A stretch of 34,809 nt of DNA from a virus, in the IMG/VR virus record IMGVR_UViG_3300010151_000059, positions 1-34,809 of that record, one strand, 5' to 3'. Of the stretch, positions 14,498 through 20,433 are shown in pieces; positions within the stretch are counted from its first letter, which is position 1; every line of letters starts with the position of its first letter. Below the pieces are notes generated by a model that ran no database searches, was not told the DNA's origin, and saw nothing but the letters and a program-made list of their open reading frames with translations. A program made the position numbers and the translations under genes.

Positions 14498-15517
14498 ATG
14501 AAATTTAAAGAAGCATTAAGCTATGGAGACGTTTTAATTGCGCCTCAATATTCAGATATACGCAGCAGGAAAGAAGTTAGCACGACCACTTTGCTTGGCG
14601 ATGTTGAATTTAGGCTGCCGATTATATCAAGCCCAATGGATACGATCACAGAAGAAAAAATGTCTATAGCAATGGGCAAGGCTGGCGGTCTTTCAATTGT
14701 TCACAGGTACAACACGCCTGAGCGGCAGGCTTTGATTGCAAAAAAGGCCATTAGCTCAGGAGCCGTAACGCATATAGCTGCCGCAATAGGAACGTCAACA
14801 GATGAGCTTCAGCGTGCGCGCACACTCGTAGATGCTGGCGTTAGAACCATCTGCGTTGACACGGCACATGGCGATCACATTCTGATGAAGACTGCTTTAA
14901 GAAATTTGAAAAAAGAATTTGGAAGTTTGATTCATATAATGGCCGGAAATGTCGCAACGAAAGATGGATATGAATCTTTGGTTGATTGGGGAGCAGATAG
15001 CATAAGGACGGGAATAGGTTCAGGCAGCATCTGTAGCACAAGAATTCAGACGGGACACGGAGTGCCTGCGTTACAATCTATTATCGATTGTTCTCAGTCA
15101 AGTTATTGTGCGCCAATCATCGCAGATGGTGGTATTCGCAACTCTGGAGACATAGTTAAGGCTCTTGCCGCAGGAGCAAGCTTTGTAATGATTGGCTCAC
15201 TGCTCTCTGGAACGGACGAAACTCCTGGCGAAATACTTATAACGAATGAGGGCAGAGTTAAGTCTTATCGAGGAATGGCCTCTAAAGATGCTCAGATGGA
15301 TTGGCGCGGGCGGCAAGCCTCGGCAGAGGGCATAGCAACGACCGTACAATACAAGGGGCCTGTGGCAGACGTGTTAGCCGATTTGGAAAGAGGTATTCGC
15401 TCTGGACTTTCTTATTCTGGAGCGAGGACTGTTCGAGAATTGCAAGAAAAGGCCATCTTTGTAAGACAAACTAACGCTGGACAGTTCGAGAGTTCTACAC
15501 ATATTTTGAGCAAATAA
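14498..15517 (+). CDS. IMP dehydrogenase / GMP reductase family enzyme
   Basis: 339 aa. IMPDH makes XMP from IMP, and GMP reductase converts GMP back to IMP. Conserved parts: DVLIAP (11-16), SSPMD (44-48), the catalytic loop GSGSICSTR with Cys179, ADGGIR, and flap [10 protein letters not shown], then YKGPVADVL and [10 protein letters not shown] near the end. The CBS pair found inside bacterial IMPDH is absent. The flap lacks the usual Arg-Tyr dyad ([10 protein letters not shown]) and partly resembles GMP reductase, so I leave the reaction open. With the PurA homologue it would steer IMP toward guanine or adenine nucleotides. A diverged 3' remnant of a second copy lies at 19110-19283. Confidence 0.9.
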
Positions 15518-17910: not shown

Positions 17911-17992
17911 AATGGATTGTTGACGGAGATTATTCTAGGTAAAATGATTATGGCTTCTGGTATTAAACCAGAACAAACTAAGGAGAGTAGAT
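17898..17992 (+). promoter_or_regulatory. Short ORF remnant and hairpin before the release-factor gene
   Basis: A 14-codon ORF MSKIKWIVDGDYSR ends at TAA 17940-17942 and looks like the truncated start of a lost gene. The hairpin ttctggt-attaa-accagaa at 17955-17973 follows. SD aggag at 17981-17985 serves ATG 17993. Confidence 0.4.
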
Positions 17993-18666
17993 ATGAATTC
18001 TATTATATTAGAGATTAGAGCCGCCGAAGGCGGCAGGGACAGCAAACTTCTTGTTAAAGATCAATTTGGAATTTACGCCAAGGTCTGTCGCCGGAACTCT
18101 CTTTAGCTTAAGCCTAATAGATTCTCGTCCAGGGATTATAATCGCCCTAGTAAAAGGGAAGAATGCTTTAAAGATGTTTGGCAGAGAAGCGGGGGGGTCA
18201 TCGTTTTCAGAGAGCATCCCCTACTGACAAAAGAGGGCGAATTCATACTTCAACAATAACTGTTGCAGTTTTAGAGGAGCCTAAGCAGGCTGACATAAAG
18301 ATTTTAGAAAAAGATCTTGAATGGAAAACCTGTCGTGGCTCTGGAGCGGGAGGTCAGCACAGGAATACAACTGACTCTGCTGTTCAGCTAAAGCATATCC
18401 CAACTCAGATATCTGTGCGATGTGAGCAGGAGCGCTCTCAACGCCTGAATAAAGAGAACGCCTTAAGATTGCTTCGGGCAAAGCTTTATGAGATAGAATC
18501 TGATACGCTTGGGAAAAAACGCTCAAGGATTAGATCCTCTCAGGTTGGCTCGGGAATGAGGGGAGATAAGATTAAAACTTATCAGATTCAAAGAGATAAA
18601 GTTACAGATCACAGGACTGGCAAGGTTACTAAATTTAGTGATCTTTTAAAGGGAAGGTTGGAATAA
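17993..18666 (+). CDS. RF1-type peptide-chain release factor, needs two +1 frameshifts
   Basis: Class I release factors read stop codons and hydrolyse peptidyl-tRNA. ATG 17993 (SD aggag) begins IILEIRAAEGG, the start of the codon-reading domain; domain 1 is absent. Frame 0 stops at TAG 18104. A +1 shift at CTT TAG C continues into SLIDSRPGIIIALVKGKNAL and FGREAGG. A second +1 shift in the seven-G run (18191-18197) joins GGHRFQRASPTDKRGRIHTS and then GSGAGGQ (GGQ catalytic). Corrected length is about 223 aa. SPT sits where RF1 has P-x-T and RF2 has S-P-F, and the flanking GRIHTS favours RF1 type. Read-through without a shift would give no family similarity. Programmed shifting, mutation or base-call error are all possible. 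Confidence 0.8.
18101..18107 (+). promoter_or_regulatory. CTT TAG C candidate +1 frameshift site
   Basis: The zero-frame codons are CTT and TAG followed by C. Slipping one base gives CTT AGC and enters the frame with release-factor similarity. The bacterial prfB site is CTT TGA C. The upstream GGAA is a weak stand-in for the SD-like element that stimulates the prfB shift. Confidence 0.45.
18191..18197 (+). repeat. Seven-G homopolymer at second frame change
   Basis: Six G would keep EAGGHR in one frame, and seven are present. A P-site slip from GGG to GGT would also restore it. Homopolymers of this length are common sites of sequencing indels, so error or mutation is the simpler explanation. 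Confidence 0.8.
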
Positions 18667-18677
18667 TGGAGAAATAA

Positions 18678-18946
18678 ATGAGCAAAGTAAAACATCCGAA
18701 TCACTATCAGAGCGGCGCTGCCCAGGGAGACTCTTCGGTTTATGAAACGATTAAAGTTATCGAAGCATGGGACCTGGGATTCCATTTGGGAAATACTGTT
18801 AAGTATATATCTAGGGCCGGAAAAAGCATGACAATGTTCTGGAAGATTTGAAGAAGGCAAGGTGGTATCTGGACCGCTTAATCGAGACTCGTGAAAAGGA
18901 ATCTGCAACGAGTCTTGACGCAACAGTTCCCGCGCCTAAATTGTAG
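18678..18946 (+). pseudogene. DUF3310 protein, first copy, frameshifted
   Basis: ATG 18678 starts HPNHYQSG and IEAWDLGFHLGNTVKYISRAGK, closely matching the intact copy at 20430. A missing base in the A-run at 18821-18825 throws the frame to a TGA at 18849. Restoring it gives DNVLEDLKKARWYLDRL up to TAG 18944-18946. DUF3310 proteins are small phage proteins of unknown role, sometimes described as nucleotide-kinase-like. Substitutions throughout show the copy is diverged and not a recent duplicate. A -1 slip in the A-run is possible but lacks a standard heptamer. Confidence 0.85.
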
Positions 18947-19045
18947 TTGAAGCCGCTCGGCAAGTCGTCGGGCGGCTTTCCGGGCAAAAGCTTTGCATAA
19001 ATTCGTGAGGCGCTCTGAGAACTATGACAAGATACCTTAATATTC
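18947..19045 (+). promoter_or_regulatory. Hairpin-rich gap after the first DUF3310 copy
   Basis: aagccgc (18950-18956) pairs with gcggctt (18972-18978), a terminator-like stem with a short T-run. A small gcaaa-agc-tttgc hairpin follows. The shared word cgggcaaaag also occurs after the second DUF3310 copy, supporting common descent of both gaps. Confidence 0.5.
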
Positions 19046-19074: not shown

Positions 19075-19109
19075 ATGGAAGAGGATAACCTGATGCAACT
19101 GACTGAGCT

Positions 19110-19283
19110 GTTCCGTACAAAGGCCCTGTAGCGGATATACTGAGTGATTTAGAGAGGGGCATTCGGGGTGGGCTTTCATACTCGGGGGCAAGAACAATCG
19201 GTGAGCTACATGAGAAGGCAAGGTTTGTCAGGCAGACCGGCGCAGGGCAGCATGAAAGCTCAACACACATTCTGAGCAGGTAA
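19110..19283 (+). pseudogene. 3' remnant of a second IMPDH/GMPR-family gene
   Basis: With the frame starting at 19110, the segment encodes VPYKGPVADILSDLERGIRG, then [17 protein letters not shown] and SSTHILSR before TAA 19281-19283. This closely parallels the last 57 residues of the intact enzyme at 14498-15517, with many substitutions. It has no start. Upstream it is fused to ATG 19093 (MQLTELF), which matches the first codons of the gene at 20850. The junction near 19112 is therefore a recombination breakpoint. The piece sits directly before the nucleotidyltransferase gene, suggesting the ancestral order was IMPDH-like gene then nucleotidyltransferase. Confidence 0.88.
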
Positions 19284-19286
19284 GTA

Positions 19287-20262: not shown

Positions 20263-20433
20263 ATGACAATTTATATAGTTACAGAAGAATCATATGCAAA
20301 TGAGAACAGAATTGTTGCCGTGTTTTCTACGGAGGAAGCTGCAGAAGAATTCATTTATGAGAATGAGTCAGATGGGGATGATGTTGGGTTTTGCACAGAG
20401 GAATGGCCTGTCAATGGAGACTTCGACAGATGA
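20263..20433 (+). CDS. Small acidic hypothetical protein
   Basis: 56 aa, ATG 20263 to TGA 20431-20433, with SD-like gggga upstream. Acidic (FSTEEAAEEFIYENESDGDD). It overlaps the start of the DUF3310 gene by four bases (ATGA), the same packing as its neighbours, which supports it being real. Confidence 0.55.
   Translation: MTIYIVTEESYANENRIVAVFSTEEAAEEFIYENESDGDDVGFCTEEWPVNGDFDR

Follow-up and report, generated by a model that had tools for sequence, protein, structure and literature searches.

The window, by which we mean the whole stretch of DNA analysed, is a 34.8 kb virus record of 34,809 nt (IMGVR_UViG_3300010151_000059). A release-factor gene lies on its + strand, as do all the features of the gene described here, with a Shine-Dalgarno sequence, AAGGAG, at 17980–17985 and an ATG start codon at 17993. 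From this ATG, frame 0 reads MNSIILEIRAAEGGRDSKLLVKDQFGIYAKVCRRNSL, then CTT at 18101–18103, TAG at 18104–18106, and then C. This first segment (17993–18103; 37 codons, MNSIILEIRAAEGG...RRNSL) contains the start of the PCRF domain, as judged from the sequence, Pfam and the selection pattern between the related phages L001 and L002. It runs into CTT TAG C (18101–18107), marked by the sequence and the relatives as a recoding site where a CTT in the P site would slip to TTT, in the +1 direction. The +1-frame segment SLSLIDSRPG...GREAGG, defined by the sequence and by L001/L002 selection, extends from 18105 to 18197, as far as a run of seven G. The C-terminal half (18193–18663), recognised by Pfam matches to RF-1 and PCRF and by RF1 in the PDB, comprises the end of PCRF, the recognition loop SPT and the GGQ domain (RF-1), and is closed by the final stop TAA at 18664–18666.

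An earlier note on this DNA had described a frame-0 start followed by CTT TAG C, with the +1 frame entering SLIDSRPG, a weak Shine-Dalgarno-like stimulator, and GRIHTS and SPT in the protein. All of these are found in the window; the stimulator, a CGGAGG-like element ahead of CTT in most relatives, is only a degenerate GGAA at 18093–18096. The note had also let the +1 frame continue into the rest of the factor, which is correct for the entry into this segment but not further on, where the +1 frame of the window ends at 18227. Because of the 7-G run at 18191–18197, a second frame break found in the window copy only, the window has the C-terminal half of the factor (GGHRFQRASPTDKRGRIHTS...GGQ) in the third frame (18178–18666). 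The near-identical phage L001 (99.8% identity over 3.8 kb) has 6 G here and a single +1 shift, at the same CTTTAGC. Since the two other indels of the window against L001, at 16703 and 16758, are likewise in short homopolymers, the extra G is probably an artefact of sequencing or assembly, or else a mutation private to this copy. L002 and L003 (76% amino acid identity) also keep CTT TAG C, so the conservation that the note had proposed to look for in related phages is seen in all three. In this clade the stimulator is mostly lost.

The surroundings of the gene also differ between the copies. A DUF3310 gene at 18678–18944 has lost its frame in the window and L001, through an indel of 1 nt within a stretch of A (GGAAAAAGC), and is intact in L002; a second DUF3310 copy of the window begins at 20430. 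At 18977–18986, L001 carries an insert of about 1.1 kb with an Ala-rich ORF, absent from the window, and 19106–19285 holds a fragment resembling the C-terminus of the IMP dehydrogenase encoded at 14498–15517.

The product has PCRF and RF-1 domains (Pfam PF03462 and PF00472) and the GGQ motif. In PDB profile matches, RF1 scored best (246 bits), ahead of RF2 (about 156–161 bits) and PrfH (94 bits), which agrees with the RF1 type proposed in the earlier note. The match starts at the equivalent of residue 87 of T. maritima RF1, and domain 1 is therefore absent. The C-terminal half scored 180–188 bits against curated prfA cut-offs of 400–423, which are set for full-length proteins. The recognition loop is PPT in most relatives, SPT in the window and SPL in L002, so that the PxT tripeptide of RF1 is missing from the latter two. 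In 29 of the 30 phage records searched (100–619 kb, some of them fragments) the factor was the sole RF-1-domain match, and in the remaining one there was a second, weaker match. PHROGs contained no named family fitting the factor, and distant blastn against phage records returned DUF3310 only. The Pseudomonas phages VCM and psageK4e were considered as members and turned out not to belong to the recoded family.

Relatives were collected by patterns from the C-terminal half only, and hence were not selected on the recoding site. This gave 168 distinct relatives from IMG/VR and from 51 loci on bacterial genome contigs, isolates included. For 117 of them a +1 step is needed to pass from the frame of the N-terminal EIRAAEGG segment to that of the GGQ half, and in every one of these CTT precedes the stop, which is TGA in 88, TAG in 27 and TAA in two; the site of L033, for example, is CGGAGGGGT CTT TGA C, and L029 combines CTT TAG with a full stimulator. 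A further 43 have an in-frame stop instead, in two the N-terminal part or a clear motif is missing, and L251 and L254 have another indel. Relatives in one continuous frame with an indel at this point, named in the earlier note as counter-evidence, are rare: only four genes are uninterrupted. Bacterial isolates with an interrupted factor include Minicystis rosea, Nannocystis spp. and Pyxidicoccus; in Minicystis and Nannocystis the gene is chromosomal. Five Nannocystis genomes (L252, L253, L261, L266 and L269) have the +1 version with TGA and share neighbouring genes, which suggests that there it is a resident bacterial gene. One Nannocystis pusilla assembly (L254:4900-4960) lacks a T of CTTTGA and has a further indel, both likely assembly errors. 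We found no operon shared across bacterial lineages; the neighbours are ordinary or unassigned genes.

It is clear from codon usage that the site is under selection. CTT makes up 12% of the other Leu codons in these genes, and its presence at the shift site in all 117 shifted relatives excludes chance. In most of them a CGGAGG-like stimulator stands ahead of CTT at the prfB spacing; 101 of the 117 match GGAGG fully or in part. At the stimulator position, AGG was used for 62 of 65 Arg codons as against 9% elsewhere in the same genes (p 5e-60), and CGG for 85 of 95 as against 18%, a bias for which, on this comparison, amino-acid constraint alone does not account. Between L001 and L002, purifying selection was found in frame 0 before the site (dN 0.075, dS 0.57) and in the +1 frame after it (dN 0.18, dS 2.4). 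The 13 pairs examined showed the same change of constrained frame, from 0 to +1, at the codon level; downstream of the site, constraint was weakest in L257/L261. Sequence comparison thus shows that the site exists and is conserved, that CTT and the stimulator are under selection, and that the selected frame switches there. We conclude that CTT TAG C is a genuine interruption and marks a conserved +1 recoding site of a short RF1-type factor without domain 1. The programmed shift with TAG claimed in the earlier note is borne out to the extent that a prfB-like +1 cassette is conserved in the relatives, with TAG in the window clade.

These data also bear on whether the interruption is recoded at all. 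That sequencing or assembly introduced an indel into an ordinary intact gene might be suspected from the homopolymer indels of the window relative to L001 (the 7-G run in the same gene, 16703 and 16758) and from the neighbouring DUF3310 gene, frame-broken in both. However, L001, L002 and L003 share CTT TAG C unchanged, and a +1 break exactly at CTT-stop is present in 117 distinct relatives, isolates included; we consider this explanation vanishingly improbable for CTT TAG C, where the relatives rule out an artefact, while for the 7-G run an artefact is still likely. A decaying pseudogene would account for the lack of any single readable frame and for the second break in the window copy; it is extremely improbable, as the GGQ, PCRF and RF1 residues are kept, dN is far lower than dS in the appropriate frame on either side of the site, and relatives throughout the family share the break. 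It could also be imagined that the stimulator is a ribosome-binding site from which the second ORF is translated on its own, so that the factor is made in two pieces, and GGAGG does stand just ahead of the +1 ORF in many relatives. Re-initiation was rejected for want of start codons: one in the right frame lies 4–13 nt behind the stimulator in only two of the 117, 37 have none that would preserve the +1 segment, and 17 have none before GGHR. Moreover, the break falls inside one domain, PCRF, and an invariant CTT would be needless, so that a split factor is very improbable.

The second class, with in-frame stops, comprises 42 loci with TGA and one with TAG. The stop usually follows Gly (GGC TGA), at the same position as in the +1 class or at a second one; the two interruption positions, about 31 and about 41 codons from EIRAAEGG, are each used by both devices. 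The 42 TGA loci (L081, L191, L199, L267, L271, L272 and others) are candidates for UGA readthrough. The first interruption position aligns with the conserved Trp of the RF1 'KGW', and readthrough by tRNA-Trp, presumably inserting this residue, would restore it. L050 and L274 have CTA or CTG TGA C at the +1 position, yet are read in frame, as if one device had replaced the other at a single stop. The hosts and phages of this class mostly use TGA as an ordinary stop. A change of genetic code was rejected for the class, as TGA ends neighbouring ORFs in most loci, for example in Variovorax (L267), Jiella (L271) and Thalassospira (L272). In L187, L198, L215 and L256, TAA is the only stop in the flanks, with two in-frame TGA in L256, L187 and L198, and these four may have a recoded genetic code. 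We also noticed that the Novimethylophilus factor (L259:2524-5474) is placed after a kinase-phosphatase-RNA ligase gene (AAA_33, Metallophos, RNA_lig_T4_1), and that five phage members of the in-frame class (L196, L197, L216, L217 and L224) have a related ligase close by.

The nearest known parallel is prfB, encoding RF2, which is likewise a class I release-factor gene whose slip site reads CTT-stop-C, preceded at short distance by a Shine-Dalgarno-like stimulator, an element that most of the relatives have and that is degenerate in the window. The product here is of RF1 type without domain 1. The site lies at codon 37, in the middle of PCRF, with CTT aligned to the Trp of 'KGW', whereas that of prfB lies at codon 26, ahead of PCRF; and the stop is TGA, TAG or TAA (TAG in the window clade), whereas prfB uses the RF2-specific TGA. 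Among 8,164 prfB motifs surveyed in 2025 there was no TAG, and no programmed shift was seen for prfA in that survey (PMC12421855). An RF1 counterpart and readthrough versions were listed as unknown in 2016, in a study of 32 shift-site variants in the context of CUU followed by UAG (PMC5009743), and the CUU-stop entries of RECODE are all prfB (PMC10885494). Viral class I release factors with internal stops have been described in Mimivirus (R726, shift motif CUU UAG C) and Megavirus (mg280, CUU UAA C), both with UGA readthrough in addition (PMC3521657). Those factors are of eukaryotic/archaeal type and are encoded by giant viruses of amoebae, a single gene combining the two events, whereas the factors of the present family are bacterial ones of RF1 type that usually have only one event per gene. 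PrfH (RFH) is, like the present factor, a short class I factor without domain 1 (PMC1586002). It is set apart by its lower match (94 bits, against 246 for RF1), by a TIGR03072 score below the cut-off and by the absence here of an SxY loop; linkage to RtcB, as in PrfH, is not steady (6 of 30 records). In the literature searched, largely openly accessible journal articles, we found no paper describing this family, so that any claim to priority is provisional.

We consider it highly probable that the short RF1-type factor is made only through a +1 slip at the internal stop, and that the site acts as a sensor of termination capacity which limits the amount of factor. Ribosomes would initiate at 17993 and arrive at CTT, so that TAG occupies the A site. 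If termination is slow, the peptidyl-tRNA-Leu would slip from CUU to UUU and translation would proceed in the +1 frame through the GGQ domain; if it is fast, a 37-residue fragment would be released. In most relatives the CGGAGG-like stimulator upstream would promote this step, like its counterpart in prfB. We infer that ribosomes slip here, that they do so at a rate governed by release-factor supply, and which factor reads the stop (the phage factor, host RF1, or host RF2 at TGA). The mostly lost stimulator and the extra indel of the window, the variation of the stop at an unchanged loop and the four uninterrupted relatives speak against this reading.

Within the +1 class, at least 23 changes of stop identity were counted on a FastTree tree of the C-terminal half in which many branches are weak. 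Judged from this tree, TGA and TAG have been interchanged often, and the window clade, the outcome of one of many such switches, uses TAG within a family that mainly uses TGA. A single-base path between TGA and TAG passes through TAA, present in two of 117, or through the sense codon TGG. TAA is read by both bacterial release factors, and its near-absence is compatible with selection for a stop read by one bacterial factor only, as it is with other reasons. The frequent switching at an unchanged loop could also mean that any leaky stop sufficed and that the recoding, though real, is a fixed low-output device and no sensor of release-factor supply. We regard this as rather unlikely, as the interruption sits in a release-factor gene, like those of prfB and the Mimivirus factor, and the scarcity of TAA fits a need for a stop read by a single factor.

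A dependence of the stop on the recognition loop was weak at most (Ser or Pro in the loop, Fisher p 0.02, uncorrected for phylogeny), and the loop stays PPT-like across TGA, TAG and TAA. Self-limitation through the factor's own reading of UAG, as the earlier note suggested, is unproven, because most relatives with PPT use TGA and the stop varies without a matching change of loop. The PPT loop of RF1 reads UAA and UAG only. If this holds here, the TGA sites would sense host RF2, and the TAG sites RF1 or the phage factor; with a broader specificity of the factor, all sites would be self-limiting. A sensor that responds to whichever host factor reads its stop, RF2 for TGA and RF1 for TAG, and not to the phage factor, is accordingly a distinct possibility, somewhat short of even; the RF1-type loop combined with a TGA site in most members favours it, whereas these factors may themselves read UGA.

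Only tentatively, and with rather more doubt than confidence, do we suggest that throughout the family, which occurs in large phages and some bacteria, the factor limits its own synthesis by reading the internal stop of its gene, and that this state was reached repeatedly through two devices (+1 slip at CTT-stop and in-frame UGA readthrough, probably with Trp), at two gene positions and with UGA, UAG or UAA. If this is true, factors of widened stop-codon specificity are implied. Annotation pipelines are likely to split such a gene or to call it broken. Recoding of bacterial-type release factors was thought special to prfB and is documented in bacteria for RF2 only. With two devices and three stops in one family, the question of why only RF2 is so controlled becomes testable; the family offers natural slip sites differing in stop and stimulator, and it points to control of translation termination by phages.
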